Assembly: GCA_024734495.1 (NCBI GenBank)
Contig: JALMQS010000028.1
Coordinates: 124,001-188,000 of the forward strand
Direction: 5' to 3'
Length of the DNA: 64,000 nucleotides
Source: Forficula auricularia
Lineage: Eukaryota; Arthropoda; Insecta; Dermaptera; Forficulidae
Part shown: positions 4,900 through 63,722 of the stretch, piece after piece
Layout of the letters: each line of letters opens with the position of its first letter
Numbering within the stretch: position 1 is the stretch's first letter
Program-made: the position numbers and the translations under genes
The notes under the pieces: model-generated
What the model was told of the DNA's origin: nothing
Database searches by the model: none
The model's input: the letters and a program-made list of their open reading frames with translations, nothing else

Positions 4900-5201
4900 A
4901 ATGTAATTTTTATTTTTCATTTTCAGAGGATGAGGAACAAAATAAGTGTTTATTTAGGACTTATCAATTGCAACGTTTGGCCACTTTTATTGCAGCTTCT
5001 TCAGGCTTCTTTCAATAGAAATGTATTCGAGTGTCTATATATATAATAATGGCAGAGCTTAAGCAATTGACAAAGTGTTTGGAGCTTTATTTATCAAGAG
5101 CCTGAAGAAGCTGCAATAAAAGTGGCGAAACGTTGCAATTGATAAGTCGTAAATAAACACTTATTTTGTTGCTCATCCTCTGAAAAACAAAAATTACATT
5201 A
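4900..5201. mobile_element. Foldback element with hammerhead-like cores in both arms
   Basis: The left arm (4900-5012) and right arm (5098-5201) are near-perfect reverse complements around an ~85-bp loop. The right arm reads CTGAAGA (5102-5108), then a GC-containing hairpin region, then GAAACG (5127-5132). The left arm carries the same motif on the minus strand, but with CAAAC in place of GAAAC. The layout fits a non-autonomous Penelope-type or other hammerhead-bearing retroelement; the class is inferred. Confidence 0.65.
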
Positions 5202-5621
5202 AAAATTACCTTGCTAAGAATAATTGAAAGCAGTGTTTTCAGGAATAATAAGAGGCTCGCCGAAGGCAGGCTTCGTGATTTGTAAATACCTACAATTAAG
5301 TAAGTGAGAAAATAGCCCAAATATCGGAGAAAATAGTTAACAAGTAGCAATTGGCAGAAAAATTTGTTATTAATAAGTTGTACTTCAGTACCAAATTTAT
5401 TATTATAGACTTCGACGGGCCTCTTGCTAGCCCCCCCCCCCCCCCCGCCTTCTGAACCATCCACCTCACTTCTTCCAAACCCCAAGAACCCCTCATCCGC
5501 CACTTCACGAATCCAGCTGTTGTCATTTTTTTAAAAATTACTTGCTGGCGTTCTTGCAAATCTTTCTAGGCTATTCTTATTTCCCCTCTATTGAGTCATT
5601 TCCCCTTAAGTGTAACAAAAC

Positions 5622-5984
5622 GGCCGGCCTCCCTGGTGTAACGATCAGAATGTCTGGCTGGCAACGCGGAGGTCTCGGGTTCGATTCCCGACTATACCCA
5701 TCCATTTTTTCTGTAACTATAGGGTCTGGAAAAAAATTAAGTGGGAGATAAATTTAACCTAATTAATCGAACGGAGAATTTACCACTGCTCGAAGCCCTT
5801 AAAAACTTAGTAAATTGGATTATATCTAACTTTCTGAGATTTGGCTTGTGATCCCGGTTTCTTTCCTTTTCTACTCTGTTCTTTTCACGATGGAGAGGCC
5901 ATTGTGAAAAGCCCATACATGCCTTTAGGGGATGCACCTTCTGGTGTATCTCCTTCTCACATCAATATCATTAAAGAAAAAAAC
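5622..5984 (+). mobile_element. tRNA-derived SINE with LINE-derived 3' tail, copy A
   Basis: The 5' part (about 5624-5702) resembles a tRNA (Gly- or Ala-like). It has A-box-like TGGTGTAACGATCAG and a B box inside GGTTCGATTCCCG, so internal RNA polymerase III promotion is expected. From ATTAAGTGGGAG (about 5736) to ATCAATATCATTA (5973) the sequence matches the 3' UTR of the LINE at 53929-54917, beginning exactly at that LINE's stop codon. It ends in an A-rich tail. A second copy lies at 17244-17521. A SINE with a LINE-matching tail is normally mobilised by that LINE's reverse transcriptase; that dependence is inferred. Confidence 0.88.
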
Positions 5985-7482
5985 ATTTCAAACAGAAACG
6001 TCGCTAAAGAAGTTTCACTTAAAAAAATATATATATTGTAATGCAGCAATTAAATTTGAACTCAATTCTCGAACCAAATGTAGCAATTAATTTGGGACCT
6101 CCAAAGGAGTAATAAGTATTATACAAAGTCAAAAATATTTTTTAAAAAGCTTTTAAACATATTATAATATAAATATATTTACGAGAATCAACAATTACTA
6201 TACTACAGATACTAACAGATGAAATTGGAATTAAATATCAAGAAATGTCTTTGTTTTGTGATGAATATGTCTTGTCTAATTGTGAAAATTAGAGGGGCTA
6301 ATTAACGGGTAGGTAAATGCATTGCTCTTATGGGGGAATGGAAATTGTTTCTCCGATAACTTCGCTGCCATTGGAGGGGAGAATTCTCTATTTCATTACA
6401 TATAATTATATTAATTCTATATATTCCAAATAGATATCACCTCTTGACGTAATTTTCTCCACAATAGTCCACTAAATTATCATTTCTGTTAAATTTAATT
6501 AATATAAGTAATTGGTATATATCGATAAAATTAGCTTTTTATATGAATAAAAAACTAGTCTAAAATGGATGGATAATAATAATTATCTTGTTATTTTGTG
6601 GTTGGCTATTAAAATCTTTTTCCAAGTAGCAAATCCTTATTTTTGTTAAGATGCTGATATTTGAGATTTTCTTTTATATATTTATTTTGGTAAGAACTTC
6701 CATATAATGAAACTCGCTTCAAGTCATGAATTTTTCACAAGATCATATTACTTGCCAAGTCTTTTCTTCGGGATTTATTATGTTAAGTTAAATCATTTTA
6801 AAGAGAGTTTTTAGAAAAACAATCACTCTCGTCTTAAATGTAGCAATTTATATTATATGAAAAGGCTTCATTACCCAATCTTAAATAGCCTCAAGCTATC
6901 CAATCGCTAATGAATACTTACTAAATTTTATACTGTAAAATATTATATAAAAAAATGTAACTAGAATGAAATTGGTTTAAAAAGTGGTCTCTAAACGGGG
7001 AAGGAAATTGTATAGCTGTTTTAGAAATATTTCACTTGAGAATGGAAGAAAAATCGAATTTTTGCTTACCTCTTCCTCTTGAACAAGTCTGAGCTTGTCC
7101 GCTGGGTCGCTGACCCAAGCGCGGTAGCCTAGTCCTGAGTCAATTATTTATCAATACCTATACAATTTATGAAAATTTTCCATTTTTGAATTTTATTAAG
7201 TTTATTACCATTACAACATTATTTTCTTAGAAAAGTTTGACATTTTTACGGATTTATATTTTAGCACAATTCTACTAATAGGTAAGTAGGAAATCTTGAA
7301 TGAGAAAGTGATGAGTGTATGTAATTTAATTTATAGGTATAATTTTTTTATTATTCCAATATTTAATTTTTCACAAATGAACACCTTGGTAAAAAAAAAT
7401 GCAGACTACGAGGTTTACAAAAAAGCACCCCATGATAATTATTGTTTTATAATATCACCTGCAGGTGCTGTTTCGGCTTTAT
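5985..7482. other. AT-rich stretch, no gene or recognised repeat
   Basis: No reading frame of interest. A small GC-richer hairpin (TGGGTC-GCT-GACCCA) sits near 7103-7118; its meaning is unknown. Confidence 0.5.
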
Positions 7483-7517
7483 TTTACTAATATTCTGGCT
7501 AGACTATTAAATTAAAA

Positions 7518-7625
7518 CAGGCGGGAATAAAATTCAGGGAGAGAAGACTAATCTACAATCTATATCAAAACCAGACGGCAATTATAAATATTGGAGATGA
7601 GCAAAGAGAAGCCAAAATAAATAAA
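7518..7625 (+). pseudogene. LINE reverse transcriptase, upstream piece
   Basis: Translates as QAGIKFRERRLIYNLYQNQ, then TAIINIGDEQREAKINK, the stretch just before the (K)GVRQGC motif of non-LTR reverse transcriptases. The continuation KGVRQGCVLSPLIFN starts at 9282 in the same frame, so the break at 7625/9282 is an insertion in what was one reading frame. The fragment is too short to have been flagged as a gene by length. Confidence 0.85.
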
Positions 7626-7762
7626 CTGCAACGGATCGTTGCTAAACTTTATCCAAATTCATTTGAAATATTAATATGTTTGTTCCTTTATTATTAATCA
7701 GATATCACTTGCAATTTGTAGTTCATATTGACATTAATTCAAAAATAATTCTCATTTAATAG

Positions 7763-8545
7763 TCGAGGAATAACCATTCTACATTGGATTTTTGACATTT
7801 CGGTTATTATTGTAACCATTGCTGAAGAAACCAATAAAAACCGAAACATCCAAAATTCAATATAGAATGGTTATTCCTCAAGTATCAGATGAGAATCAAT
7901 CGCTACTTTTGATTTTAACTCGATTCCTCTATGTCTTCAGCAATGGTTACCAATAAAAACCGAAACGTCAAAAATCCAATATAGAATGGTTATTCCTCAA
8001 GTACTAGATGAGAATCAATCGCTATTTTTGGCTTAAAGTCGATTCCTCTATGTCTTCAGCAATGGTTATCAATAAAAACCGAAATGTCAAAAATTCAATA
8101 TAGAATGGTTATTCCTCAAGTACTAGATGAGAATCAATCGCTATTTTTGGTTTAAAGTCGATTCCTCTATGTCTTCAGCAATGGTTACCAATAAAAACCG
8201 AAATGTCAAAAATCCAATATAGAATGGTTATTCCTCAAGTACTAGATGAGAATCAATCGATATTTTTGGTTTAAAGTCGATTTCTCTATGTCTTCAGCAA
8301 TGGTTACCAATAAAAACCGAAACGTCAAAATTCCAATATAGAATGATTATTCCTCAAGTACTAGATGAGAATCAATAGCTATTTTTGGTTTAAAGTCGAT
8401 TTCTCTATGTCTTCAGCAATGGTTACTAATAAAAACCGAAACGTCAAAAATCCAATATAGAATGATTATTCCTCAAGTACGAGATGAGAATCAATCGCTA
8501 TTTTTGGTTTAAAGTCGATTTCTCTATGTCTTAAGCAAAGGTAAC
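7763..8545. repeat. ~120-bp tandem array with an inverted first unit
   Basis: Direct units, each with CCAATAAAAACCGAAACGTC, TAGAATGGTTATTCCTCAAG and TCTTCAGCAATGGTTAC, start near 7831, 7950, 8070, 8189, 8308 and 8427, a period of 119-120 bp. Just upstream, 7763-7828 carries the same unit on the opposite strand (GAGGAATAACCATTCTAC ... GTAACCATTGCTGAAGA), so the array opens as a head-to-head palindrome. Near that junction CTGAAGA (7822-7828) and GAAAC (7843-7847) form a hammerhead-like pair; later units keep GAAACGTC but not CTGANGA. Confidence 0.9.
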
Positions 8546-9060: not shown

Positions 9061-9281
9061 CACTAAATGAAAAAATCGCACTTTTTGGCCTCTCGACGAG
9101 ACCCCATGTAATTTTTGGCAAAACCGTCACGTGCTAAAATTCAACCTAATTGAATACTACAATTTGTGACTTTAATTGAGTCCATGGGTTCCGTAGTCTT
9201 TACCTGAGGACCCTTTGAAGCCACGCTTGCCCCGAGAGCGATTACAATACTTTACCCATGCTTTGCATTGGATAAAGTAAA

Positions 9282-10203
9282 AAAGGTGTAAGACAAGGAT
9301 GTGTGCTGTCACCCCTGATTTTCAACTTATACATAGAAGAAGCGATTAAAGAATTCAAAGACAAAATTGATACAGGTATCGAAATCCAAGGTCAAAAGAT
9401 CGCTATGTTAAGATTTGCCGATGACATTGCCCTTCTAGGAAGCAATAAAAAAGAATTAGAGGACGCCTTGAATGGAATTAACCAAATCCTAATAGAAGAA
9501 ATCAAAATGAAAATAAACAAGAATAAAACGAAGGTCCTAGTATGTACAAAAAAAGAACAAACGAAACAGGAATGCATCAAAATTAACCAAGAAAACCTAG
9601 AAGGAGTTAAAGAATTCCACTACCTAGGAAGTAAAATAACATGGGATGGGAGAAGCGAAAACGAAATTAAATCAAGAATTGCCCAAGCAAAAATGGGGTT
9701 TAATTCAAAACAAAAACTACTATGCTCCTCCTCAATTAGCTTAGAAAACAGGAAGTTGCTATTGAAGACATATGTATGGAGCATAGCCATGTACGGGTGT
9801 GAAACCTGGACAATTAGAAAAGCGGAGAGAAAGAGATTAGGTGCTTTCGAAATGTGGTGCTACAGAAGAATGATGAATATTAAATGGATGGATAAAATTA
9901 CAAATGAAGAAGTTCTTGGAAGAATCGGAGAAAGAAGAACCTTGTGGAAGAGTCTGAAGAAGAGAAGAGGTCAGATGATGGGGCACATACTAAGACATGG
10001 GGGATTGCTTAGGGATATCTTGGAGGGGGAGATGGGAAAGAAAAGGGGAAGGGGAAGACACAGATTAGAATATTTCAACCAAATAATTGGGATATGGGAT
10101 GCCAGACATTTAGAGAGGTCAAACAGCTGGCGGGGGACAGAGTCGAGTGGAGACGGATTGTTGCATCAAACCAGTCTTAGGACTGTATACTCAATGATGA
10201 TGA
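9282..10203 (+). pseudogene. LINE reverse transcriptase, downstream piece and C-terminus
   Basis: The open frame contains KGVRQGCVLSPLIFNLYIEE, then the catalytic FADDIALLGS motif (the YxDD-type box of the palm), then the thumb and the C-terminal region with YLGSKITWDGR, YGCETWTIRKAERKR and RRGQMMGHILRHGGL. The frame runs about 300 residues to a stop at 10209-10211, just past the element end. The N-terminal endonuclease and the first RT blocks are missing (5' truncation) or separated (insertion), so it cannot be functional. The family is non-LTR retrotransposon, common in insects; RTE-like is my best guess. Confidence 0.9.
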
Positions 10204-10233
10204 TTTACTAATATTCTGGCTAGACTATTAAAT

Positions 10234-10909
10234 AGCTAATAATTTTGTTGCTATCATTAAAATGAAATAAAGTGTCAAGGTAATTTAATTAATTTTTTTT
10301 AATTTCTCAGAATTTTAATAAAAGAAAAATTATTTTAATTTTATCTAGGTTGTAATTGTAAGTTACAATTACAAAAATTTCTCCAGTAAGTATAACATTG
10401 GATCTTATTGCACTAAAAATATACCACGGCTGCGCTATATATCCCATTTTTGTAATAACCTGACATTGACTTTACTTGAAACAAGCCACAGAATTTGTCT
10501 TTCTCAGATCATCGTATATGGCAAATAAATATGTAGTAGTCGTCTGGGTAACCCAAAAGACCCGGAGACGCTGTCGGGAGATGTAGGCAGAGTTTTCTGT
10601 TCTGTATGAGCGTTCGAGTTCCCTGGAATTCTCTAGCAGTGAGATAGGGTTTGGAATGCATAGAGCAATAGTAAATAGTCTTTTGAATCTTGCCAGGAAC
10701 AATTATTTCCATTGCTGACATTAAAGTAAACACGCCCCGTTGATGCTTGATATCAATACACTCTATTTATTAGTGCTGACGAACTTTGTTTAAATCTAAT
10801 TTGGATTACAATACTCGTGATAACCTAAAAAGGGAATTTCTTAGAATGTTCAGTATAATACTAAAATAAAAGATTTCACTGTCGATGGTAACAGAATTGT
10901 TTTTATTTT
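10234..10909. other. AT-rich stretch, no gene seen
   Basis: Two overlapping minus-strand frames of ~75 codons at 10472-10733 match nothing I recognise and lack supporting signals. Confidence 0.45.
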
Positions 10910-11403
10910 AGGTTAAAAAATAAAATGAGAGATGGAGTCTTCTGTTTTTAAATAAAATAATTTTTAATTATTTCTAGAGACTATAGTTTCGAAGGCATTG
11001 CCTTCATCATCAGTCTATCACAAATATTTCAGAATTTAGTTACATTCAAATTAAGATTTATACATTAAAAATTTTGAAAAATATGTTTTTTCATGTTCCC
11101 TCTTGGGAGATTAGAATGTAAATAGAGCAATGTCAGGGTTACTCGTCTTCTTTTTGTTTAGGCTTTTTGTAAAGTGTTTTATCTTCTAATCGCCCAAGAA
11201 GAAACATAAAAAAAAAATAAAAAAACATTATATTTTTCAAAATTTTCAATGTATAAATCTTAATTTGAATGTAACTAAATACTGAAATATTTGTGATAGA
11301 CTGATGATGAAGGCAATGCCTTCGAAACTATAGTCTCTAGAAATAATTAAAAATTATTTTATTTAAAAACAGAAGACTCCATCTATCATTTTTTTTTCAA
11401 CCT
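10910..11403. mobile_element. Foldback element with hammerhead-like cores in both arms
   Basis: Arms of about 220 bp (10910-11130 and 11175-11403) are near-perfect reverse complements; the tips read AGGTT / AACCT. Both arms keep the motif CTGATGA - GAAGGC/GCCTTC hairpin - GAAAC: minus strand at 10986-11013, plus strand at 11301-11328. The GAAGGC/GCCTTC stem is a perfect 6 bp. Confidence 0.75.
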
Positions 11404-11816
11404 ATAATACTAAAATGTTTGTAAATTTAAAATAAAGGTCTACTGATAAATAAATTTAGAACTTTCTAGATTCAGAAATTCCGGTTCAAAAATGCAGGAA
11501 ATCAGGAAAAAATCTAATTATCATTTGAGAGCTATGAGTGCAATACAGTTCAAATGTTTACATTAATAGACTAAACATCTTTGCCAAATTTCAGAACTCT
11601 AGCTCAAAACGATCGCTAAGAAAAAATTCAAATCTAGAAAATTTACAAAGTGAGTCTTAAAAAATATTTACTTTTTTCTTCTATTTTGTTTTATCAGATG
11701 AGATTAAAATTAAACCTATACAAAATTTAGATTTGTTATGTTTGTTTTACTGAAAAAGATTAAACTTGAACCTAAGCTTAAATTACATAATATGTAAATT
11801 TATTAATCTTGATTTT

Positions 11817-12186: not shown

Positions 12187-12267
12187 CGAGCTGCTCCAGG
12201 CGTGCCTTTGGCACGCCCTCTACAGCTCGCCCTTCCGGGCAGATGGCCCTGGCGGGCCGCGTCTCGG
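12187..12267 (+). other. GC-rich cloverleaf-like element, copy 1
   Basis: An abrupt GC-rich island in AT-rich DNA. It can fold into three hairpins: GCGTGCC/GGCACGC, GCCC/GGGC and GGCCC/GGGCC. A short CGAG/CTCG pairing closes them. The same architecture and much of the sequence recur at 38167-38244, both after TAACGAG. It is not tRNA-like in sequence (no B box). Function unknown; a structured non-coding RNA or a transposon end are both possible. Confidence 0.6.
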
Positions 12268-12289
12268 CATGTGATTATTAGGTCTGTAA

Positions 12290-13030
12290 TATATATTTGT
12301 AATATTTTGCCCCCTCTTTCGCCCCCACGCACTCATTTTGGCTATTGATTTTTACAGCATACATTTTATATAGTCTTAAAAACTAATATTACAAAATTTG
12401 ATCTATATCGGAGAGAGTATTAATTTTTTGCCCCCACTCACATTTTGGGAGGTTGAAATTATTTTTCAGATATTTGGAAATAAATAACTCTCATTTTTCT
12501 AAAGAGTAAATGTACAAAAAAGCTAAATATTTCTATATTTTGCTTCCCCCTCGTCCCCATACAGTCAATTTTGATAGTTGATTTTTACAGAAATAGTTTC
12601 TTAAAGTAATAAAGAATAACTCTACAAAATTTTATCAAGATAGGAGAGAGTTTTAATTTTTGCCCCCACTCACATTTTGGATAGTTGAGAGTCGAATTTC
12701 AAAAAATCCTGAAATTATTTTTTAGATATTTGTATTTAGAATTTTATTAAGAAAAAATCAAGTAGATATCTTATCGTTCTTAATTGAAAATGCATAATTA
12801 GTGTAAACACATTGCAAAGATATTTTGCCCCTTTTGACCCCTTTAGAGGTCGAATTTCAAAAAATCCTGAAATATTTTTTTAGATATTTTAATTTAGTAT
12901 TTTTATAAGTAAAAAGCAAGTAGATATTTTATCGTCCTTAAGAGATATCGCATAACCAGTGAAAACACACTTTGCCCCCTTTGACCCCCTTAGGGGTCGA
13001 ATTTCGAAAAATCCTTCCTTTGTGAGCCCC
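12290..13030. repeat. Degenerate tandem-like C-rich repeats
   Basis: Blocks such as TTTTGCCCCC, TGATTTTTACAG, CCCCCACTCACATTTTGG and GTCGAATTTCAAAAAATCC recur with spacings of roughly 120-240 bp. No coding capacity. Confidence 0.55.
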
Positions 13031-13686
13031 TATGTCATAGATGTAATATCCTCTCAATATTTTATGTTTCTATGTCCAGTGGTTCTGGCTGTTTTGATGA
13101 TGAGTGAGTGAGTGAGTGTATCGGGCAAAGAAAGAACTTTATATAATATATATAGATTTTCTTTCTTTAATTATTTAATAACTTATTTTTATTCTATTTA
13201 TCACAAATTTCTTGATCAACTAAGGGAATTCGGATTTACTTACTGCTACTTACTTATAATAATTCTTAAGTATTTATTCTAAGGTTAAAAACTAAAACCT
13301 GATGGATAAAATTCAACAGAGAAATGAAATAATATTATTAAAATTTGCATTAATTTCTAAAAACAAGAATTTTAGTTTTTATGGATAATACCTACGCCTC
13401 CATCCTTACGATTGATCCATTTTTCCTTCGCTTTGGAAATGCAAGAGTCTTTCGAGGTTAGCGACCTCTTTATAACGTAGTTTCGGCGGCCCGCTTGCTA
13501 GCCAGGAGGCACGCCCCCTGGACCCTCAGCCCATTGAACCCCACCCTCACCCCCACTCCATTATTACGAGTCATCACTTATGTATTCCTCATTAAATTAT
13601 TTGGTTACTTCCAAAATTTGTCAATTCTACTAAATAGTTATTATATATATTATAGTTAAAAAATGTATAATTTATTTACCATAGCC

Positions 13687-13937
13687 CAGAGTTTCTCAAC
13701 CTTTTTTGGCCCACGGAATAGTAAAATTTGTAAAAAATTCGCGGACCAGTGATATTTTTTTAACAACAAAATTTTACAGGTATTAAAGAACTACTACATA
13801 AGTTGATTTTAACATTTTTATTATCATTTACTTACAATAATATTTAAATGTAAAGATATGTAATTATATACATATGCAGACTAGTAAAATTTCTCCGCGG
13901 ACGCAGACTCTACCGGACCAGCGGTTGAGAATAGCTG
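13687..13937. mobile_element. hAT MITE (251 bp)
   Basis: The left end CAGAGTTTCTCAACC pairs with the right end GGTTGAGAATAGCTG. The flanks carry an 8-bp target duplication, CCATAGCC on the left and CCCTAGCC on the right (7/8), as expected for hAT elements. No coding sequence, so it is non-autonomous. Confidence 0.85.
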
Positions 13938-13945
13938 CCCTAGCC

Positions 13946-16379
13946 TATTCTAGAAACGACACTGCACTTTATTATTTTTCTAGACTATAGCGGTATGTTT
14001 TTTGTCAGTGTATTTTTATTCGATTTAAATAAGGACAATATTTGTATAATTAACAAATAATAAATCCGAAAAAATTGGGAATTGTTTCCGTATTGTAGTT
14101 CCGCCACTGGTTCGACTGTATGTATCATTTATATATGTATCAAACTGTAAATTTGAAGAAAAGTAAAACTTTTTCAAGATTCGGTGCGCAGTTTGCGGTT
14201 TCGTTGAATTAATAATTTGATGATAAATATCTAGATCATTCTATCTCCATCATTTTTAGTCTTTTTCTTCGATCAGATTCTAATCAAACAATTGCTCATT
14301 CGCCGATTTATTAAATATTAAAAAAATGAAAAATTATTTACATTAGAGACTCTTTGTGAAACACCACTATAACCCGTTAAATAATAATTCCTTTGTTTAA
14401 TATGTTTCACTATAAACCAACACCGCTTTCCCTAAACTTTATTAGAGACGCCTTTATAATTAATTAATAATAAACTTAAATATAAAATAGATTGTTCATT
14501 TATGCCTATATATTATAACATTGATTTAAAACCTGAATAAAATCATTCCAAAAATTATGTTTTATTTATTTTTGAACCAGAAGTTCTAAAGCTAGAAAGC
14601 CCAAAATCTAATTAGCTCCCTGTAGAAATTTGAAACTTGTTGATGGAGAGAAACGGTTGATATATATTATACAAAGTGTCACATTTCATTGCTCTTACTC
14701 CATGTATGAAAATTCACCTTTTCTTCTGATTTTTTGCTTTGTTAAGTGAAGTTCTGAAGGTAGCCTAAATTTTAAAGAATTCTTAGATTTGACAAAAAAT
14801 CACACACCTTTTAGCACCAGAACAACCTTTACATTTTTTTTATTTTTTCTCCTTGTTTCGGACATTTCTAAAAACGATAAAAATATAATTTTCAAATGAA
14901 TTCAATACCTCAGTACGCTCGAGAATGAAACGAAGTCTCATAGGCGATTAGAGAAAATGTAAAACGTGTTTGCCTGATTCTAGATCAACTAAATTTAGTG
15001 AGAATTCTGTTCAGAATAAATATCTTTTCTTTTGTTTTTTGAGTTTTCTATTTAATTCAATTCTAAAAAAAGGGGCAGCTAATTTGATATTCTGAGGACA
15101 TCGCACTCTCTGTGTTTTTATTTACAAAAGTTTCTATCTCCAATTGATTAGGTCTTCTCTTATTTAGTAAATTTTAACTCTGCCTTGCGTTCATCCTTTT
15201 AATATTAAGAAATGAGATGCTTAATTCAAACAATATCCTTCATTAGCAGTTTTTCTCTTCGGAAACTGTAATTCTAATGATTCTTTAATGATGCTCTTAA
15301 TTGTGCCTTATGGCAAGGTACTTTTGGAGAATTATTGGCGCCTAGATACCGAAAAGTAATAGTAAGGAGGTTGCATCTCTACTTTCCCTTTCAGCTTGGT
15401 CCCATGAGTCCCGTACAAAAGATTGATCTGAGTTCTTGTTCATTTTATCTCGATTCAAGTCTCAATACTATAAATTAAGTAAATCCGAGAATTAGATGAT
15501 TACTTTTTGAAAAGATATCTGTTAGGGAAGTCATTTTTTTTATTCTTTTTTTTATTTTAACCTTTGATTTAATTCCAAGTTTTACACCCATCCTTAATCT
15601 TAATTCGGTTCAAAGCGGATTAGGATTTAGAACATCATCAAATGGAATGGTAGGCTACTGAAGCTTGCAGGGCGTATGAAAATTGAATTCACGAAATTTA
15701 TTTTTGTTTATTCGTTTCTTTGAAAGGTGGAAAATTGTAACTCAACCAGGATTTTCTTATCTGTTTCGATAATTTAGGAATACAGAGTCATATAAATTTT
15801 ATAGTCCTAAAATTTTTAAATTTCTTTTATGAAAAACCTTATTTGGACTTTTAGGAACTTCAAATTCAAAATCCATTCAGAAAATCAGAAAAATCCGAAT
15901 CATTATTTGAAAATCGTTCGAATGCACAAACGTTTCTATCAATAATCTAAATTTTTTAGCTAAGTTCAGTTTTTTATTTAGAAAATTATATTTTCCTCAA
16001 TTCAAAATCGTTTTTTTTTAATTCAAAATTTATTTTTATGTTTTCTTCAAATTTACTCTCAGTTCGTATCATTTATGTGAGAGATCAAGTTATCGATAAA
16101 AATATATTTAAATTTTATAAGAAAATCACAAATGGAGGTGATCTATTAGGTCCGAGATGGAATGGATTATTTTTAATTATAAGTCAAAATGGATGTTATT
16201 TACCTCTTCGGGAATGGAACCCAAGTGCCAATAATAGCAATCGGCTAATCTGTGAAAATTAAAAACTATCCATTTTTCAGATTATCGTAGCTCATAAACT
16301 AAATAGTATAAACACTTAAAATCTAATTTTTATCAAAATCGAAAATTGTATTAAAATTTTAAAATAATGATTATTTTAG
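13946..16379. other. AT-rich stretch, no gene; one dispersed repeat block
   Basis: At 14485-14595 the blocks TGTTCATTTATGCCTATAT and TTTTGAACCAGAAGTTCTA match the reverse complement of about 36150-36260, and more distantly 53020-53110. The rest holds nothing I recognise. Confidence 0.5.
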
Positions 16380-16600: not shown

Positions 16601-16815
16601 CCCCATAAAGATCTCTTTAATTAAAATAGGCTAAATTGTTTTAAATTTAATTTATTTTAAAATTACTGTGTGAGAGAGTCTCAAAGTGGCCAATATTGAA
16701 GAATTTTCGTATCTGTCGGTTTTCAGAGGTACTAATCTTAAAATTATGAAAAAATTTCGCAAATTCATTTATCCCCTTCTTATCAACGTTATATAAAAAA
16801 TATTGATATCTTAAG

Positions 16816-18000: not shown

Positions 18001-18240
18001 TCGATCACATATGTGTACCGCATTTTGTGTATAACTGTAAGTCTCAATAACCAACTTGGTCAACTTATAATTTTTTATAAAAAAATATATCAATTAACAT
18101 CCATTTGTAAAAATTTGTTTAGCCTAATTGACTGAAGATGGCCAAATAAAATTCAGGCCGAAACGTCTCATTAAAGGTGTTTTATTGAACCCAGTGATTC
18201 CATCTTTGGCTGATACCTCCTCCTTCATCTAGTATAGTTT
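18000..18240 (+). repeat. Hammerhead-bearing repeat, related to 58190-58375
   Basis: CTGAAGA at 18132-18138 is followed by GGCC ... GGCC (stem) and GAAACGTC from 18160. The related copy at 58190-58375 keeps GACCGAAACGTCTTATT and the surrounding sequence (AACCAAC.TT..TCAACTT upstream, TTTTATATTGAA downstream) but has lost CTGANGA. Confidence 0.6.
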
Positions 18241-19160: not shown

Positions 19161-19254
19161 TAAAAGAAATTAGATAGGTTCTTTAATAAAATATTTGAAA
19201 ATGGTGTTTTATATACCTAATAGTAAAAAAACATAAAAAAACACATTTATTCAA

Positions 19255-21779: not shown

Positions 21780-22090
21780 CACAATCAGACCGCTCTTCAA
21801 AATTGTTCATAAAGAGAAACAAAGAGGTTGTCCTCTGCTTGATGCAAATATATGTACATACACACATTGGTATATACAAAAATATATATATATGTAAATA
21901 TAATTTTTATTTGTTTGAGACTATAGTTTCGAAGGCTTGGCCTTTTATCATCAGTCTTTTTTAATTATAAATATTATTTTTCATGGGGCAAATATCCAAG
22001 CGATAGTGGCCTCATGAAAAAATAATATTTATAATTAAAAAAACTGATGATGAGGGCCAAGCCTTCGAAACTACAGTCTCAAACAAATAA
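21780..22090. mobile_element. Foldback with hammerhead-like cores (AAACAAAGAGG family)
   Basis: The outer sequence CATAAAGAGAAACAAAGAGG then TTGTCCTCTGCTTGATGCAA recurs at 61540 and, inverted, at 61810, 62560 and 22810. The palindrome proper is 21909-21985 with 22012-22088. The right arm has CTGATGA (22044), stem GAGGGC/GCCTTC and GAAAC (22067); the left arm has the minus-strand equivalent at 21926-21954. No protein. Confidence 0.75.
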
Positions 22091-22139
22091 ATAATATATA
22101 TATATATGGATGAGGGGTGAACCGCGACCTAATATGCTG

Positions 22140-22440
22140 TACAGCTACTTCCACTTGTACTTCCAAATATTTCCAAGTACTTCCAAATATTTCCAAGCAA
22201 TTCCAAATATTTCCAAGTAATTCCAAATATTTCCAAGTACTTCAAAATATTTCCAAATACTTCAAAATATTTCCAAGCACTTCCAAATATTTCCAAGTAC
22301 TTCCAAGTATTCCCAAGTACTTTTAAATATTTCCAAGTACTGTCACACCTACTTCCAATCGCGGATCACTTCCAAATATTGATCCATAGTACTTCCAATA
22401 TATTTCCAAGTACTTTTAAATATTTCCAACAGAGGTGTAC
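22140..22440. repeat. 20-bp minisatellite TTCCAAATATTTCCAAGTAC
   Basis: About a dozen diverged copies of the 20-bp unit. An apparent reading frame across 22117-22326 merely translates the repeat (KYFQVLP-type heptads) and is not a gene. Confidence 0.9.
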
Positions 22441-23586
22441 GACCTACTTCTATGTATACCTTTATGAATCAACAACTCTGCTACTCTCAATTATAAATAT
22501 ATACGTGTTTGAGATAAAAAATTTTCAAAAGAATTAAAAAATACAACATTTTTGCATATACCTACCTACAACATATTTTACATATTTTTTCTGAAAAATA
22601 CAGAAAAAAAATGGTTTAGTATTGTATATAGGTATTATGGTATTTTTCAAGATGTTATAGGCAAAAAACCAATAAAATAGTTCTCTTAAACGGTTAGTCA
22701 AAAATATTTGAAAACCTTTTTTTAAAAAGTATAAACAAATGTCAAGAAATCAAGTACATATATGGTGTAGAATGCCCCAATTGCCTCATATATATTTATA
22801 TGTTTATTTGTATCAAAAAGAGGATAACCTCATTGATTTTTGTTTATGAATAAAAATTCAGTTGAATTAATTTTTATTGGTTTAACATTTAGTCTTGATA
22901 TAGAAAAATTTAAAGCGATTTCCTGAATTTGATATTGGAAAAAGAATGGCAGATTGTGGAGGAAGTTGCATTCTTGTAGGGGGGGAGAGATAGACTAATG
23001 GGGAAAAACAGAAAACGATATTGGGCTAAGGGAAGGGCGAAAGAGAGGGTGAGATGGAGATGGGAATGACAAACAAGGAAACCCCCGCATCATCCCTCAC
23101 CCAGGCCAAAAGAACAGAAAGAAAAAAGAGAATCCTATCGACGGGGACACAACGATAACAGATGAGATGTTGGGGATCCTCTCTCTAGACGGATCGATTG
23201 GTGAATTTCAACTGAATTTATCATGTTCGCTCTAATTGGTCCAAAAGCTCTTCTTACGATCCAGCGATAAGCTCTCTGTCAGTTGATAGAAAAGGGGTGA
23301 ACTATTCAAATAAATCGTACATAATTGAAGAATTGATCCCATTATTCGTAGAAATAATATTTTTATTAAAAAATTCAATAAGTAGAAAAGAATAATGGAA
23401 TTTGATGGAGTGGCAGCCCAAGAAAATGAAAAAAAACAATACCTATTCAACTAAAACTTTACCAAAGTATTCGCCCTATTAAAATATCTATAAAAGTTCA
23501 TTTTGCCGATATGAACAGAGTCAGATTGCTTTGGAAAATCCCGAGCAAGTTTTGTATTAGAATCAGTATCAGAATCGAATTAAATC
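22441..23586. other. No gene; purine-rich patch
   Basis: Ends of the AAACAAAGAGG family sit near 22445-22490 and 22790-22850. From about 22940 to 23210 the DNA is unusually purine-rich and GC-richer than its surroundings, possibly unique sequence, with no convincing frame. Confidence 0.45.
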
Positions 23587-24916: not shown

Positions 24917-25561
24917 TTTTAATTAACAGGAATAGCAGGGAATTGGACAAAAATAAAAAACAGAGTTTTTATTGAATGGGCCAGACGTTTCGTCGATTAA
25001 TTCAACTTCCTCAGTGGCTCATTCTATCACTTTTTGTCAAACGACAATCTCACCGCGACGAAACATCCTTTAATCCTTTTTATTTAAACTATAATACATT
25101 GTTGGATCATGCCCACTGCTCAAGAATCTGAGAACTTTACACACTTGAACAATCAAAAAATTAAAAACTTTTAATCAAAATTTATCACAAAAAAAATATG
25201 TTTCTACTCTTTAAACAGACAATTTTTTTTTTTTTTAATTTAAAATCCTTTCTTTGTCTGTTTAAAGAGTAGAAACATATTTTTTTTGTGATAAATTTTG
25301 ATTAAAGGTTTTTAATTTTTTGATTGTTCAAGTGTGTAAAAGTTCAAGATTCTTGAGCAATTGGGGCATGATCCAACAATGTATTATAGTTTAAATAAAA
25401 AGGATTAAAGGATGTTTCGTCGCGTAGTGGAATTGTCTTTTGACAAAGAGTGATAGAATGAGCCACTGAGGAAGTCGAAATTAATCGACGAAACGTCTGG
25501 CCCATTCAATAAAAACTCTGTTTTTTATTTTTGTCCAATTCCCTGCTATTCCTGTTAATTA
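24917..25561. mobile_element. 645-bp foldback with paired hammerhead-like cores
   Basis: Long arms are centred near 25235, with tips TTAATTAACAGGAATAGCAG / CTGCTATTCCTGTTAATTAA. The left arm carries, on the minus strand, CTGAGGA - GTTGA/TCGAC - GAAACGTC (24985-25014). The right arm carries CTGAGGA - GTCGA/TCGAC - GAAACGTC (25466-25496). The arms differ at one stem base, going from a G-U to a G-C pair, so pairing is kept. Confidence 0.8.
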
Positions 25562-25621
25562 ATGCTTATTATGGATACGAGTGATCTACCGTTATATTAA
25601 TTTTATTTTACATTGAAATAA

Positions 25622-25949
25622 ATAGTTTTTAAGGAATTTGGTGTTGGTACTTGGTGAAACATTTTTAAATTATTGAATAAAAAATACTTGGTAGGTTTCA
25701 CATTAAGATATAAAAAATAAAACGAATTTATTTTTGGAGAATCTTTAATCTCGATATACTCTATATATTTCGGGTGACTAAAGTAACTTTCTGTTGCTCC
25801 TGAAGATGGGTTAGTCACCCTAAATATATAGAGTATATCGAGATTAAAGATTTTCCAAAATCTTAATGTGAAACCTACCAAGTATTTTTTATCCAATAAT
25901 TTTAAAAAATGTTTCACCAAGTACCAACACCAAATTCCTTAAAAACTAC
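25622..25949. mobile_element. Foldback with partial hammerhead-like core
   Basis: Arms 25622-25777 and 25809-25949 are reverse complements (GGAATTTGGTGTTGGTACTT at one tip). Near the centre CTGAAGA (25800-25806) is followed by GGGT/ACCC and then TAAATATATAGAG. The left arm's complement has GAAATATATAGAG, so GAAA was probably ancestral and one arm is mutated. Confidence 0.7.
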
Positions 25950-44522: not shown

Positions 44523-44560
44523 CCTGATGATGGACTAATAATCCGAAATATATTGAGTTT
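44523..44560 (+). ncRNA. Hammerhead-like core, isolated
   Basis: CTGATGA (44523-44529), then TGGA ... TCC (short stem), then GAAATATATTGAG. It resembles the motif at 25800 in stem position and downstream sequence (GAAATATATAGAG). No flanking palindrome is evident, so it may be a lone remnant. Confidence 0.5.
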
Positions 44561-44663: not shown

Positions 44664-44882
44664 AGTAAAAAAGAAGATAATTTATACTATCTTTTTATTC
44701 ATAAACTGACGTTTCGGAGGCTATTCCCTCCTTCTTCAAAGTCAGTGAAGAAAATCCAATGCGACATTCTTGTCTCTCTTTCAGTGGAAGTAACAATAAT
44801 ATATTGTATTTCATTCTCAGCAGAATTATAATGTAGTCGGTTTATGAATAAAAAGATAATATAAATTATCTTCTTTTTTTTT
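44664..44882. mobile_element. Foldback with minus-strand hammerhead-like motif
   Basis: Arms 44664-44711 and 44836-44882 (AAGAAGATAATTTATACTAT / TAATATAAATTATCTTCTTT). On the minus strand at 44711-44741: TTTGAAGA, AGGAGG...CCTCC stem, GAAAC. CTGANGA is degraded to TTGAAGA. Confidence 0.6.
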
Positions 44883-50977: not shown

Positions 50978-52557
50978 AACCGACTTCAAAAAAGGAAGAG
51001 GTTCTCAATTCAAATGATTTTTTTTGTGTCTATGTTACCTGATATCTTCGCCAATTGCGAACCGATTTTGATGATTTTTTTGCATTGGGTTCAGTCTAGT
51101 TTCCGATTGGTTAAGGAAGTTCTTTCACAAATGCAAAAATTCAAGAAGTCTTTGAAACTTGGAATATAAGTCATTAAAAGCATAATACACATACTGTTTA
51201 AATTTGAAGACGATTTACCACACCAAACATGAAATAATTGCAATTAAAAATGACATTTTTCACATAGAGTAGATAGGAAAAGGGTGGGGTATATGATCAT
51301 TATTTAATTTTTTTTCATTGAAAGACTTTCACCATCTTGATGAAAAACTAATATTTGTTAGAATAATATATTCGGAGTAACTTAAAAAAAAATCGAAATT
51401 ACTTACCACGTAGTTTTGATAAAAAACAAAAAAAAAACATATTTGACGACTATTTTTAGTGGAGGGGATATAAGCACAATGGCTTCGAAACGACCGGCAA
51501 GTATGTGTGTATCTATATAGAGATTTCGTAGTGTGAGTGGACAGTCAGGTAAAGAAAAAATACCCTAAAATTTTAGTTCCTTTCATATTTATAGAGTGGT
51601 TAAGAGGCTAAAACTTTTGGCGTGGATTGTCACGAAAGAACCTCCTTAAAATATAAATTTCATTGGTAGGTATTGGACCTTTTTTGTTATGTTTGTTCAG
51701 GCATAACTTCTTTGTTTATGAACCGATTTTAATCATTCTTTCTGCGTTTGGATCAGTATAGCTCCAGATACCTAACTATTTATTTAGTTATTTATTTTAT
51801 GTATGTTCAGCGAGAACTTTTTGCTACGTGGACCGATTTCGATGATTCTTTTTTTATTGGAAAGTGGGTACCTTATGGGTGGTCCCATATTAATTCAAGT
51901 TCTGATGATATGATCGATGATGAAATAACGTAAATCTCCAATTCTTATGAGCAAATAATCAAGATTATAATAAATACAATCTTTTATAAAAAAAATATTA
52001 AAACATTCATTTAAAACCCCCTAAAGTTTCGAGATAATTTGTCTATTTTATTATCATTTTCTGATTCCGACGCTTTCTCTTACGAGATGCATGCAAGGTA
52101 TTATATTAAGCCACTATTAATAACATCACTAAAAAGAGAAAAATAATAATATTTATAAAAAAATAAAAATAAAACCGACTTCAAAAAAACTAAATGCAAC
52201 AAATAAAATAATAAGAACTCAAAAATCAAATAAAAACCACTAAAAGATATAAAATAATTATCTTATTTAGTTACAACTAAAGGACGAAATATTTATATAA
52301 AATCACTTTTTGAAGTCGGTGCTAAACAAACTATATAAGCGAGGTACCCGCCAAACGTACTAAGTAAAATCCGTCAAGTTCGATTCATAAAATGTATATT
52401 TTTGGCACCGACTTCAAAAAGTGATTTCATGTTGATATTTCGTCGTTTAGTTGTAACTAAATAAGATAATTATTTTATACCTTTTAGTGTATTTTATTTT
52501 ATTTTTGAGTTCTTATTATTTTGTTTGTTGCGTTTAGTTTTTTTGAAGTCGGTTTTA
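50978..52557 (+). mobile_element. ACCGACTTC element, full arrangement, interrupted
   Basis: Starts AACCGACTTCAAAAAAGGAA and ends TTTTTTGAAGTCGGTTTT. The order is: outer unit (CTATGTTACCTGATATCTTC), mid-region (AAGTTCTGATGATATGATCG, TAACGTAAATCTCCAATTCT), then the inner palindrome with the TACTAAGTAAAATCCGTC loop. The copy at 55461-56372 has the same order on the opposite strand, so this may be the family's complete unit. Confidence 0.8.
51115..51645. mobile_element. MITE with TTAA target duplication
   Basis: Ends GGAAGTTCTTTC / GAAAGAACCTCC are inverted, and TTAA lies on both sides (51111-51114 and 51646-51649), the piggyBac-type target. It splits the ACCGACTTC element after CTAGTTTCCGATTGG; in other copies the sequence continues uninterrupted. 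No coding frame. Confidence 0.7.
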
Positions 52558-55460: not shown

Positions 55461-56372
55461 TGGTTTGTCCATCTGATTGTAGCTACAATTTTTAATAATA
55501 ACTTAAAAATAAAATAAAATCCACTAAAAGGTATAAAATAATTATCTTATTTAGTTACAACTAAACGACGAAATATTAACATGAAATTAGAGCGTACTCG
55601 CCAAACGTACTAAGTAAGATCCGTTAAGCGCGATTCATAAAATGTATATGTTTGGCACCGACTTCAAAAAGTAATTTCATGTTAATATTTCGTCGTTTAG
55701 TTGTAACTAAATAAAATAATTATTTTATACCTTTTAGTGGATTTTATTTTATTTTTAAGTTATTATTATTTTATTTGTTGCATTTAAGTTTTTTGAAGTC
55801 GGTTTTATTTTTTTATAAAATTATTTTTAAATTTCTCTTTTTAGTGATGTTATTAATAGTGACTTAATATAATACCTTGCATGTATCTCGTAATAGAAAG
55901 CGTCAGGCGAATGAATCAGAAAATGATAATAAAATTCAATTCATAAATATAGAAATTGTCTCGAAACGTTTACGGGTTTTAAATGAATGTTATAAGATTT
56001 TTTTTATAAAAGATTTTATTTATCATAATTTCGATTATTTGCTCATAAGAATTGGAGATTTACGTTATTTCGTCGTTGATCATATCATCAGAACTTGACC
56101 AAATTAATATGCACTATCCCTAAGATACCCCCTTTCCAATAAAAAAAGGATCATCGAAATCGGTTCATAAACAAAGAAGTTAGGCCTGAACAAACATAAC
56201 ACAAAAGGTCTAATACCAATGAAAAAAAACGGGACAATCGGAAGCTAGACTGAACCCAATGCATAAAAAACCATCAAAATCGGTTCACAATTGGCGGAGA
56301 TATGAGGTAACATAGACACACAAAAAAAAATCAGTTGAATAGAGAACCTCCTCCTTTTTTGAAGTCGGTTAA
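55461..56372 (-). mobile_element. ACCGACTTC element, full arrangement
   Basis: The reverse orientation of the 50978-52557 order: inner palindrome (about 55461-55810), mid-region (CATCAGAACTTGACCAAATT), then the outer unit ending CCTCCTTTTTTGAAGTCGG. The left arm of the inner palindrome has a deletion (after ACATGAAATTA, 55590). Confidence 0.8.
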
Positions 56373-56434
56373 AAATGAACTATATTTTTAATTGATAATG
56401 AAACTCTCTTCTACTTTCAATAATTTTTAATAAT

Positions 56435-56690
56435 AATTGAATGTAATGGAAAGCAGCCCAGGGTTAGTGAGGAAAGAAAAAATTAACACATATCAAATAA
56501 GGTGTAATTTATTCGAATCCTTCCTCCTTTCCTTTCAAATCGACGTTTCGGAGGATTCTTATTATTTATATTATTAATTTTTTCTTTCCTCACTACCCCT
56601 GGGCTGCCTTCCATTACATTCAATTAAAAGTTCTACCATTCCGTCTCTCTCCAGAGAAAATTTCGTTGCAAAAAAAATTTTATAATAATT
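56435..56690. repeat. Snapback repeat, third copy, with CGACGTTTCGG
   Basis: GAATGTAATGGAAAGCAGCC on the left is mirrored by GGGCTGCCTTCCATTACATT on the right. The middle has TCGACGTTTCGGAGGATTC, the 3' half of the hammerhead-like motif on the minus strand. It links the snapback family to the GAAACGTC foldbacks. Confidence 0.7.
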
Positions 56691-61479: not shown

Positions 61480-61860
61480 AATATTTCCAGAGATAATAAA
61501 ATGAAAAGTTTTTGTTTTGCCGAGAGTAGCAGAGTTGTTGATTCACAAAGAGAAACAAAGAGGTCGTCCTCTGATTGATGCAAATAAACATACACCCATA
61601 TATATCTGTATATATAGTTCTAAGCTGACCACCAGTGAAGAAGGAAAACCAAATTTTCAATTTCCATACGATATTGACTCCATGAAAAACATTTATAATT
61701 AAAAAAAAGACTGATGATGAAGACCAAGTCTTCGAAACTATAGTCTCAAACAAATAAATAATATATATATACAGATATATCATCTCTATATATATGTGTG
61801 TATGTTTATTTGCATCAAGCAGAGGACAAACTCTTTGTTTCTCTTTGATAATAAAATGAA
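61480..61860 (+). mobile_element. Hammerhead-bearing AAACAAAGAGG element
   Basis: Left: AGCAGAGTTGTTGATTCACA, AGAGAAACAAAGAGGTCGTC. Right: the same family block inverted (TTGCATCAAGCAGAGGACAA, ACTCTTTGTTTCTCTTTG). Between them: CTGATGA (61711-61717), stem GAAGAC/GTCTTC, GAAAC (61734-61738). The stem differs from the 11.3-kb copy (GAAGGC/GCCTTC) by a paired G-C to A-T change. No protein. Confidence 0.75.
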
Positions 61861-62284
61861 ACATTATTTATCAATAATTGTGTCCCTTAAATTTGTGATT
61901 TCTTGATAATTTGCGATTGATTCAATACTTTCTCTATTTATTTACTAAAGAACAAAGCTGGGTCACCACGATCAAATTAATGATCACAAATAGAGCATTG
62001 CGAGCTCACGAGTGGATCTTTTTTTCTTTTCTTTTATTGGACTCGGGAACATAGATGATACGAGTGGATCTAATTGTGTTTAAATTTCAGCATATTATTA
62101 TAACTGATTTGAGGTAGCAATCAACAATTTTTATAGTAAGTGAAACAGGACACAATGTCGATACAATGTCGAGAGCATTATACTTCGAAAACTAAATAGA
62201 ATACAAACTTCAAATTTAGAAGTTATTTATATTAATTTTTTCTTAATTTAAAAATTCTATTATAATTTTAATTGAAAAGATTTT

Positions 62285-62590
62285 GATTTGCCGAAAGTAG
62301 CAGTGTTGTTGATTCATAAAGGAAAATCAATGAGGTTGTCCTCTTCTTGGTACGAAGAATTGTTCTTTATGTATTATGTGGCTTGCTTGCTATAACAACA
62401 AAGCGAATTTATCTACATATATCCAATCAGCCAAGTGAATATATGAGAAATAATAGATAAAATATTTCTAATTAAAAGACTTCGAAACTATAGTCCCTAA
62501 GAAATAAATTATATATTGTATATTTACATTCGTTATATGTATATGTTTATTTACATCAAGCAGAGGACAACCTCATTGATTCTCTTTATA
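62285..62590 (+). mobile_element. AAACAAAGAGG element, degraded
   Basis: Same layout as 61480-61860 (AGCAGTGTTGTTGATTCATA at the left, TTTACATCAAGCAGAGGACA at the right). Only GACTTCGAAACTATAGTCC of the ribozyme-like motif remains; the CTGATGA half is gone. Confidence 0.7.
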
Positions 62591-63240
62591 TAATTTAAAT
62601 TTTAAAATATGTAAAATATATTCATTCATTTTAAACATAAGACACTAATTTCATTATTTTTCAAATTTAACATTAGATTTTTAAAAATATATTTTGGGAC
62701 CTTCGCCCCAACTGGATGCTACTTTGTGTGAGTGAGGTTAGTAGTCAGAAATTAATTCTAGCAAGCTATGACTTATTGTCTATTGCATTCTTAGTCATTT
62801 CCAATTTTATACCATATATTGAGAGTTCTTACAAATGGATTAGTCCAAAGATTCTCTTTTTTATAATAATAGTTCCTCAGCGAGAACAATTTTTATTCGA
62901 CCAAAACTCTTCTAGACTTGTCTTTGTCTTTGACATGGCTGAACTAGAAGATAGACTAAGTAGGGACTTCAAGCCTTCTATCGGCACTCTTTTCGGAAAA
63001 ATCGTTCATTTTAATTGCCCCTTGAAACTATGCAATCATTTTATTTCATTTTGAGAACCAATATACTTTTCAAAAATAAAAAATCTTTTTTATAGAAATA
63101 TTTGAAATAACGGATAATAATTTGAAAATTTAAAGATCATTCTGAAATTTTGAAATTGACATATATGTATTTATGAAAATACTCTAAATGTTTGAAATTT
63201 TAGGGATGCGCCGCATCCAACACCCATGGCCCGCACGCTA
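62591..63240. other. No recognised gene
   Basis: A 112-codon plus-strand frame at 62716-63054 has no motif I recognise and base use like the surrounding DNA; I treat it as chance. A short GC patch (ATGCGCCGCATCC) lies near 63206. Confidence 0.4.
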
Positions 63241-63300
63241 CTGTTTTATACTATATATATTTGTCTAGATTAATTTGAAACAACGCTTAGAGAAATTTCT
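63241..63300 (-). repeat. Inverted copy of the 39545-39605 repeat
   Basis: Contains TACTATATATATTTGTCTAG, then ATTAATTTGAAACAACGCTT. Confidence 0.6.
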
Positions 63301-63310
63301 CTAATAAAAT

Positions 63311-63385
63311 TACCGTCTTGCCTAGAATCAAACCGACGAACTCTTGAACTAAGGGCACTAGCTCTAGCCATTACGCCATTGAAAC
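63311..63385 (-). repeat. tRNA-like sequence, SINE head or tRNA pseudogene
   Basis: The minus strand reads AATGGCGTAATGGCTAGAGC (A-box/D-arm like), then CGGTTTGATTCTAGGC (B-box like). The acceptor ends do not pair and no SINE body is recognised after it. Confidence 0.5.
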
Positions 63386-63396
63386 ATTAATAATTA

Positions 63397-63722
63397 TGCA
63401 ATTGGATGTTGATGAAAGCAGTCCACGGTGGTTGTAAAAAAATAAGACTATAGAGGTTTTATTATTTTACATTTATTTGTTAAACCGACGTTTCGGAGAT
63501 TTATTCTCTCCTTCTTCAGGGTAACAAAAAGTCAATGAAAGTAGTTCAAAACATAATTACTTTCTGTCTCCTTTGACAATGCCAAAAAAACATTACAAAA
63601 AATTTTTGTACAAAAAATCTCCGAAACGTCGGTTTAACAAATAAATGTAAAATAATAAAACCTCTATAGTCTTATTTTTTTACAACCACCGTGGACTGCT
63701 TTCATCAACATCCAATTGCATA
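63397..63722. mobile_element. Foldback with hammerhead-like core
   Basis: The left arm (63397-63505) and right arm (63623-63722) are near-perfect complements (CAGTCCACGGTGGTTGTAAA / TTTACAACCACCGTGGACTG). Minus strand at 63490-63519: CTGAAGA, GGAGA/TCTCC stem with a 7-base loop, GAAACGTC. The right arm keeps only the GAAACGTC half. It ends near a CCAGTCCGTCTCCTAAAGAA block that the snapback family also carries. Confidence 0.8.

Follow-up and report, generated by a model that had tools for sequence, protein, structure and literature searches.

Background

Hammerhead ribozymes of a minimal type I form occur in Penelope-like elements (PLEs) and were described by Cervera and de la Pena (2014) and by Lunse, Weinberg and Breaker (2017), whose work is followed here through the pertinent passages of a review (PMC7761336). 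According to sections of a study on an anole PLE, the element's protein cuts and extends both strands, and copying begins from two neighboring internal sites, which delimit the tail seen in genomic copies (PMC11167929). Penelopes of bdelloid rotifers, as portrayed in parts of another study, have inverted pseudo-long terminal repeats (pLTRs), one of which bears a tail, and some copies are flanked by target-site duplications of 8-10 bp (PMC3846280). Here we analyze hammerhead-like cores scattered over both strands of a 64,000-nucleotide stretch of the genome of the dermapteran Forficula auricularia (assembly GCA_024734495.1, contig JALMQS010000028.1, positions 124,001 to 188,000), hereafter called the window. 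We consider it very probable that the head-to-head repeats bearing most of the intact cores are pairs of PLE pLTRs devoid of an open reading frame (ORF), generated by reverse transcription that probably used both strands of the cut target as primers. The direct observations behind this reading concern the pairing of core and stems, the palindromic stem III, the head-to-head layout, the direct repeats, the one-sided tails, and the tandem PLEs.

Hammerhead cores in the window

All 13 core sites listed by the first-pass annotation of this DNA were found in the window, some with the start or end shifted by one base, and the observation as such holds. The complete conserved core (C3..A9, G12 A13 A14, A15.1-U16.1 and H17) is present at nine sites (5102+, 10979-, 11301+, 18132+, 24984-, 25466+, 44524+, 61711+ and 63487-). 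Two others are slightly altered, with G10.1 replaced by A and the first stem II pair lost at 21927-, and with stem III reading ACTACAGT at 22044+. The remaining two are dead: at 7822+ stem II is unpairable (ACC versus ACC) and stem III is broken, and at 25800+ G12 is lost. The loose motif CTGANGA..GAAA occurs 18 times in the window versus 3.97 matches expected; these comprise 12 of the 13 listed sites (25800, which has lost GAAA, is absent) and six extra matches (1510-, 19588+, 36349-, 51902+, 56068- and 61219-), taken as chance or unrelated. A strict descriptor, composed after the sites had been read, allows one optional inserted base and demands a stem II of at least 3 bp and a palindromic stem III starting from A15.1 and followed by H17. 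It retrieves exactly the nine full sites, whereas 150 dinucleotide shuffles yield 0.067 on average; a stem I of at least 2 bp is present in all nine, the shuffle mean with stem I being 0.007. One additional A or T precedes stem II in each of the nine.

In intact copies the bases 3' of GAAA are CGTC or CGTT, CTATAGTC, or TATATT. Helix III is a self-complementary stub (ACGT, ACTATAGT or ATATAT after GAA, then C or T), and the predicted cut site, U16.1-H17, directly follows this palindrome. The first-pass annotation could assign neither stems I and III nor the cleavage site with confidence; once stem III is read as a short palindrome, the other two can be placed, stem I being formed by the bases after the predicted cut and those just before CTGANGA. 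In sequence and pairing the cores are those of minimal type I hammerheads, which are predicted to self-cleave as dimers. To judge by its title, the work of Lunse, Weinberg and Breaker from 2017 reportedly deals with such cleavage of dimers.

The suggestion that pairing is kept while the bases change holds for stem I as well as stem II. Eight window copies that differ in their stems, including one with a decayed C3, form the first two pairs of stem I in 16 of 16 cases, versus a mean of 6.0 and a maximum of 12 when each 5' strand is matched with the 3' strand of another copy; the outer three pairs of stem II form in 24 of 24 (swapped mean 15.0, maximum 22); over three positions stem I has 22 of 24 pairs, and over four 25 of 32. 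When 11 window copies are aligned with MAFFT, 94.9% of the cells for the four stem II pairs hold a standard base pair, and 10 cells are changed on both sides versus 3.1 in shuffles. Pairs with two-sided change (2) are not above the shuffles (1.8) and further pair types are only slightly in excess (7 versus 5.2), the remaining covariation measures exceeding all 500 shuffles. A larger set consists of 61 distinct cores of the families F1 and F2, drawn from 130 cores in 80 sources, the window included, by a search pattern that demanded the core and left the stems free. In this set 3.79 of 4 stem II pairs form on average, versus a mean of 2.66 and a maximum of 2.93 in 1,000 shuffles; for stem I the average is 2.57 of 3, versus 1.47 and at most 1.84 in the shuffles; the second position of stem II is occupied by GC, AT, TA and CG pairs, and the A or T insertion before stem II is found in 61 of 61. 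Single-copy folds have z below -2 in five of seven cases (18132 has -1.55 and 44524 has -0.22), and each of the seven minimum-energy folds contains stem II.

Paired elements and their insertion sites

Self-comparison of the window reveals that seven of the nine intact cores sit in short inverted repeats with the ribozymes facing outward, i.e. head to head. The cores and the elements that contain them are as follows (E numbers designate elements):

4867..5208, no strand: E5, head-to-head pLTR pair; the short arm and a tail of ~23 nt are on the left
4972..5004, minus: partner of the 5102 core, G12 changed to C; match of our F1 model at 4960-5015-
5102..5134, plus: hammerhead core, family F1; stem III ACGT, predicted cut after ACGUU; an identical core lies beside GIY-YIG fragments in the same genome
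7822..8545, plus: E7, tandem array of 119 bp with ~6 units and hammerhead remnants; the first unit has CTGAAGA and an unpairable stem II; CGAAA is retained in the later units
10868..11402, no strand: E11, head-to-head pLTR pair; left tail from 10868 to ~10911
10979..11013, minus: hammerhead core, family F2; stem III ACTATAGT
11301..11335, plus: hammerhead core, family F2; faces outward, as does its partner 10979
18132..18167, plus: hammerhead core, family F1 (E18); no inverted partner in the window
21806..22490, no strand: E22, head-to-head pLTR pair; a 20-bp tandem repeat interrupts the right arm; tail ~22460-22490
21919..21954, minus: hammerhead core, family F2; A in place of G10.1
22044..22078, plus: hammerhead core, family F2; stem III ACTACAGT
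24919..25562, no strand: E25, near-perfect head-to-head palindrome of ~0.64 kb; both sides end in TTAATTAA
24984..25014, minus: hammerhead core, family F1; fits the strict descriptor
25466..25497, plus: hammerhead core, family F1; faces outward, as does its partner 24984
25800..25830, plus: decayed core of family F3, G12 lost; in the inverted-repeat element E258 (25623-25948)
44524..44554, plus: hammerhead core, family F3; stem III ATATAT, predicted cut after AUAUAUU; no inverted partner in the window
44708..44739, minus: F1 core in E44b, decayed by a C3-to-U change; the arms of E44b span 44667-44710 and 44836-44879
56434..56677, no strand: E56, F1-type pair; 5'-truncated core at 56542(-); tail on the right
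61507..61846, no strand: E61, head-to-head pLTR pair of the L181 PLE (see below); tail 61507-61546 on the short left arm
61711..61745, plus: hammerhead core, family F2; letter-identical to the core of the L181 tandem PLE
62274..62588, no strand: E62, same family as E61; the core has lost its 5' half and survives at 62480-62495; the short left arm carries the tail
63398..63759, no strand: E63, head-to-head pLTR pair; the short right arm starts in loop II and carries the tail 63720-63759
63487..63519, minus: hammerhead core, family F1; fits the strict descriptor

The target duplications are exact at E11 (14 bp, TATAATACTAAAAT, 10854-10867 and 11403-11416), E61 (15 bp, GATAATAAAATGAAA, 61492-61506 and 61847-61861) and E63 (12 bp, ATTAATAATTAT, 63386-63397 and 63760-63771). 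Direct repeats with one mismatch border E5 (11 bp, 4856-4866 and 5210-5220, not significant alone but abutting both ends of the PLE homology), E56 (13 bp, 56426-56438 and 56678-56690) and E62 (13 bp, 62261-62273 and 62589-62601). The end of E25, TTAATTAA, is 8 bp long and self-complementary, so that a target duplication and a repeat end look the same there. Between the end of one arm and the direct repeat, an extra stretch (~23-51 nt by alignment) is found on one side only in E5, E11, E56, E61, E62 and E63, and these tails are alike within a family.

The same architecture is found genome-wide. In 1.06 Gb, the core patterns of families F1, F2 and F3 have 30,627, 12,995 and 12,222 matches versus 6, 0 and 0 in reversed-pattern controls, i.e. 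55,844 matches together, some of which may not be intact, as the patterns demand no stem pairing. In a sample of 300 places, taken from the top of each family's list and all lying on contigs C1-C4, there are 62 same-family neighbors within 1 kb, of which 53 are head to head, four opposite and five on the same strand. The first 30 F1 loci listed yielded 27 elements after removal of three duplicates, and 12 elements chosen as pairs brought the set to 39; a head-to-head partner is present in 23 of the 27, and in 35 of the 39 with the chosen pairs included. A direct repeat significant at p <=0.02 (100 shuffles per element) and 11-21 aligned bases in length was detected in 24 of the 35 head-to-head elements, and in 22 of these 24 a gap of at least 15 bases (a "tail" of 17-47 nt) occurs on one side only, the other two having one on each side.

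The arms stop at many different 5' points, and the tail tends to go with the shorter arm. In the genome set it lies on the truncated arm in all six elements that combine a partner truncated within or after the hammerhead with a significant one-sided direct repeat. In the window it lies on the short arm of E5, E56, E61, E62 and E63, among which only the repeats of E61 and E63 are clearly significant alone; E11, E22 and E25, with near-equal arms or no tail, are uninformative in this respect.

Several observations on these elements stand by themselves. AATAAA, a possible polyadenylation signal, occurs inside loop II of several F1 cores (5102, 18132 and 63487). The 20-bp tandem repeat within the right arm of E22 (GTACTTCCAAATATTTCCAA) has ~13 copies at 22157-22429. 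In the 119-bp array (7830-8542) the later units retain AACCGAAACGTC or a near form, and their CTGAAGA segment is inverted with respect to that of unit one, which resembles what the flipping of a hairpin loop would produce.

Penelope-like elements of the same genome

A genome search for the GIY-YIG domain returned 3,423 candidates, of which 150 were scored, all of them above the cut-off, and several contain open frames of 825-864 amino acids (aa). The most informative locus, L181, comprises two complete units in tandem, each 2,909 bp long and identical to the other at 2,904 positions, and a single frame of 858 aa encodes both a reverse transcriptase (RT; 1.6e-16) and a GIY-YIG nuclease (8e-6). 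As the units differ at just five positions, this PLE family was recently active or recently homogenized. L181 carries three cores spaced 2,909 bp apart, and their sequence, CTGATGATGAAGACCAAGTCTTCGAAACTATAGTC, is identical to that of the window core at 61711. On the L181 unit the arms without a tail end at position 284 in both E61 and E62, the tailed arms end at 324 and 328, respectively, and the arms of E22 end at 289 and 309. The tail of this F2 family (E61, E62 and E22) is the PLE sequence just past the pLTR, namely the start of the long frame (INNSATLGKTKT).

Other window families have relatives of this kind as well. A copy of the E5 core lies ~750 bp beyond a divergent GIY-YIG frame in L189 (27.6% identity to the L181 protein over 410 aa), a copy of the E63 core ~700 bp beyond a fragment in L192 (32.7% identity over 110 aa), and the pLTR of L191 matches E11 at 73-77% identity. 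Thus partial PLE frames adjoin E5, E11-like and E63 cores in the genome, the window elements themselves being ORF-less. By resemblance only, the E18, E25 and F3 families may be placed among PLEs too. The proposal of the first-pass annotation that several non-autonomous families share a hammerhead core, of which PLEs are one known home, is supported, and PLEs of the same genome carry the same core.

Proposed origin and alternatives

The following scenario could give rise to such elements. The PLE protein would bind a PLE transcript near its tail and cut both strands of the target ~11-21 bp apart. One of the 3' ends would begin copying at a distal site and thereby acquire the tail, and the other would begin at a proximal site ~40 nt closer to the ribozyme. 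Both cDNAs would stop within a few hundred bases at most, before the upstream ORF sequence, and would be joined head to head, the ribozyme being carried along as part of the pLTR; in transcripts of tandem PLEs it would cut the RNA into unit lengths. From two cDNAs begun on opposite cut strands would follow the outward 3' ends, the target duplication, the head-to-head join and the one-sided tail. A broader proposition, to which we give an even chance, is that PLE reverse transcription is two-handed and asymmetric, the tailed, distally begun cDNA ending early and often inside the hammerhead, and that the dispersed minimal hammerheads of animals are mostly ORF-less double-ended PLE insertions, a distinct non-autonomous class. 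If this is true, the present genome records the asymmetric PLE reaction thousands of times.

Several results weigh against the origin from PLE pLTR pairs, or at least limit it. In the genome set, 11 of the 35 head-to-head elements have no direct repeat at p <=0.02, L141 and L200 are gapped on both sides, and both arms cross the predicted cut site in 32 of the 35. In the window, 18132 and 44524 have no inverted partner, E22 (with an AT run only), E44b, E258 and E7 have no clear target duplication, and the direct repeats of E62, E56 and E5 are imperfect and alone not significant or borderline. A search with the L181 protein and Pfam in eight frames, which a divergent PLE could escape, found no PLE-coding sequence past the tails in the window. 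As to the ribozyme, a stem III of 2-4 bp is weak, the fold of 44524 is no better than its shuffles (z -0.22), and the hammerhead stem I is replaced by other pairs in the minimum-energy folds of 18132, 11301 and 61711.

Covariance models must be mentioned here as well. The Rfam search, suggested by the first-pass annotation as a check, went against it: neither at the gathering threshold nor at E 10 did any hammerhead family match in the window, the matches being to microRNA-precursor models (several of which fit long palindromes), one small nucleolar RNA, one coronavirus 5' untranslated region model and one tRNA. This negative result was discounted on two grounds: the core patterns have 55,844 matches in the genome versus 6 in the controls, and PLEs of the same genome carry the same core. 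We think that Rfam misses these cores owing to a helix III that is a mere palindrome, where the models probably expect a closed one, which suggests a reason why Rfam-based annotation would overlook such cores. Our own F1 covariance model, built from six F1 copies, recovers these six and the G12-mutant partner at 4960-5015- (E 1.2e-8); it gives the F2 copies of the window just 17-18 bits (E 0.03-0.05) and reaches 15.8 bits (E 0.17) in the PLEs, which likewise counts against the PLE reading. The model also has a 17.4-bit match at 31759(-).

The alternatives differ widely in how well they accommodate these data. Chance matches in AT-rich palindromic DNA do occur, as six of the 18 loose matches in the window are of this kind, but for the nine full sites as a set chance is refuted by the shuffles (0.067) and, genome-wide, by controls with 0 to 6 matches versus 12,222-30,627, so that we regard this explanation as practically negligible. 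The elements are also short, non-coding, palindromic, abundant and flanked by direct repeats, as would be expected of miniature inverted-repeat transposable elements (MITEs) whose terminal inverted repeats happen to contain a hammerhead-like string. We find this very hard to believe, given that their ends are asymmetric, with 17-47 extra bases on one side only in 22 of 24 cases, that the direct repeats are not fixed in length (11-21 aligned bases), that the arms end at many different 5' points, that the extra bases in the E61/E62/E22 family are PLE sequence, and that for E61 and E62 the F2 pLTR, tail and core are all part of a PLE. Only slightly less improbable is an origin as animal retrozymes, i.e. 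from hammerhead-cleaved circular RNAs copied back as head-to-tail repeats. Type I hammerheads in small non-coding units would fit it, as would the decayed tandem array of 119-bp units (7830-8542) and a run of four cores on one strand at C4:1022704-1023098, and the length of ~170-400 nt given for animal retrozymes in the consulted part of PMC7229834. However, same-strand neighbors account for five of the 62 pairs among the 300 listed places versus 53 head to head, and helix III is here a bare palindrome, whereas most invertebrate retrozymes have a stable one according to the corresponding passage of the review (PMC7761336).

A more serious competitor, albeit still an unlikely one, accepts the pLTR pairs as real PLE insertions and regards the ribozyme as vestigial, or as a non-cutting mark of RNA structure near the ORF start. 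It is favored by the fact that both arms cross the cut in 32 of 35 elements and by the sections available on the anole PLE, in which hammerhead mutants left insertion in vitro unchanged and the ribozyme cut only when the PLE protein was added (PMC11167929). Against it speak the compensatory changes that keep stems I and II across very different stem sequences in the 61 distinct cores. Because both arms cross the cut in the 32 elements, the RNA copied in these cases was uninterrupted there; it may have been a ligated circle, on which RT would likewise pass the cut site. Cleaved RNA as the usual template was likewise rejected, as the short arm ends at the cut only in L148 (+5; n=35) and in E44b of the window (~-3). 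The short arms of E56, E61 and E62, as well as those of L133 and L150, stop 3' of the cut. The origin of the head-to-head elements from PLE pLTRs copied at both cut strands remains the explanation we strongly prefer, and it makes each insertion a readable record of where both cDNAs started and stopped, through which a poorly understood mechanism of retrotransposition could be tested statistically over thousands of events.

Other features of the window and related searches

Sites of the CTGATGATATGATC type (40977+, 41454-, 51902+ and 56068-) were rejected as hammerheads, being the ends of other inverted repeats, with arms 40921-41048 and 41425-41552, and 51895-52048 and 55945-56098. Nested inverted repeats of 86-99% identity form a palindrome of ~2.1 kb at 27628-29769. 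Two similar RT-frame fragments of a retrotransposon occur at 9276-10208 and 33584-33883, and the best named protein matches of the former are from an orthopteran, aphids and psyllids. Pfam searches of eight window frames detect an RT, and a GIY-YIG match at 24204 (17.2 bits, below the cut-off of 22.6) was taken as chance. The F1 pattern was also found at 120 or more loci in viral_contigs, which were dropped since 0 of 120 have both a stem II of at least 4 bp and a stem I of at least 3 bp, and since the ORFs read, those of L108, L014 and L022, look phage-like or bacterial. Seven of these at least 120 loci (L068, L076, L082, L092, L093, L098 and L103) have in common CTGATGATGGC..GCCGAAACGTCC and a downstream GCGTC or near form, which looks like a putative hammerhead with a closed helix III.

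Comparison with known systems

The ribozyme class, its link with PLEs, the inverted pLTRs and the tails are already known. In the literature searched, where Cervera 2014 and Lunse 2017 are represented through the review, two things look new: that ORF-less head-to-head elements are a main vehicle of a genome's dispersed minimal hammerheads, and that the tail lies on the 5'-truncated arm. In this literature, ORF-less or head-to-head PLE pairs with hammerheads were not found beyond the works cited here. The minimal PLE hammerheads, as far as the relevant part of the review goes (PMC7761336), are alike in having a type I core with almost no helix III, in residing in PLE pLTRs, and in being dispersed by the thousands per genome. 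The differences are that here the dispersed copies, with 55,844 pattern matches per 1.06 Gb, are resolved into head-to-head ORF-less insertions, and that an A or T is inserted before stem II in 61 of 61 F1/F2 cores.

The Penelope/Poseidon PLE of Anolis (PAc) resembles the elements of this genome in combining GIY-YIG and RT, in its tandem copies, and in a hammerhead near the ORF start; according to the same sections of its description, the tail lies between two RT start sites and both strands are cut and extended, as we would also propose here (PMC11167929). Short head-to-head ORF-less products are not described in those sections. The bdelloid Penelopes share the head-to-head pLTRs, the short target-site duplications, and a 31-bp tail on one inverted pLTR, but in the parts consulted the pLTRs mostly flank ORFs or captured sequence, the copy number is low, and solo pLTRs are mentioned too; the word hammerhead is absent from that text (PMC3846280). 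Finally, the animal non-LTR retrozymes, in the excerpts used here, likewise are small and non-coding and possess a type I hammerhead; however, they form direct tandem repeats and circular RNA, whereas the cores of this genome are arranged in head-to-head pairs (PMC7229834).

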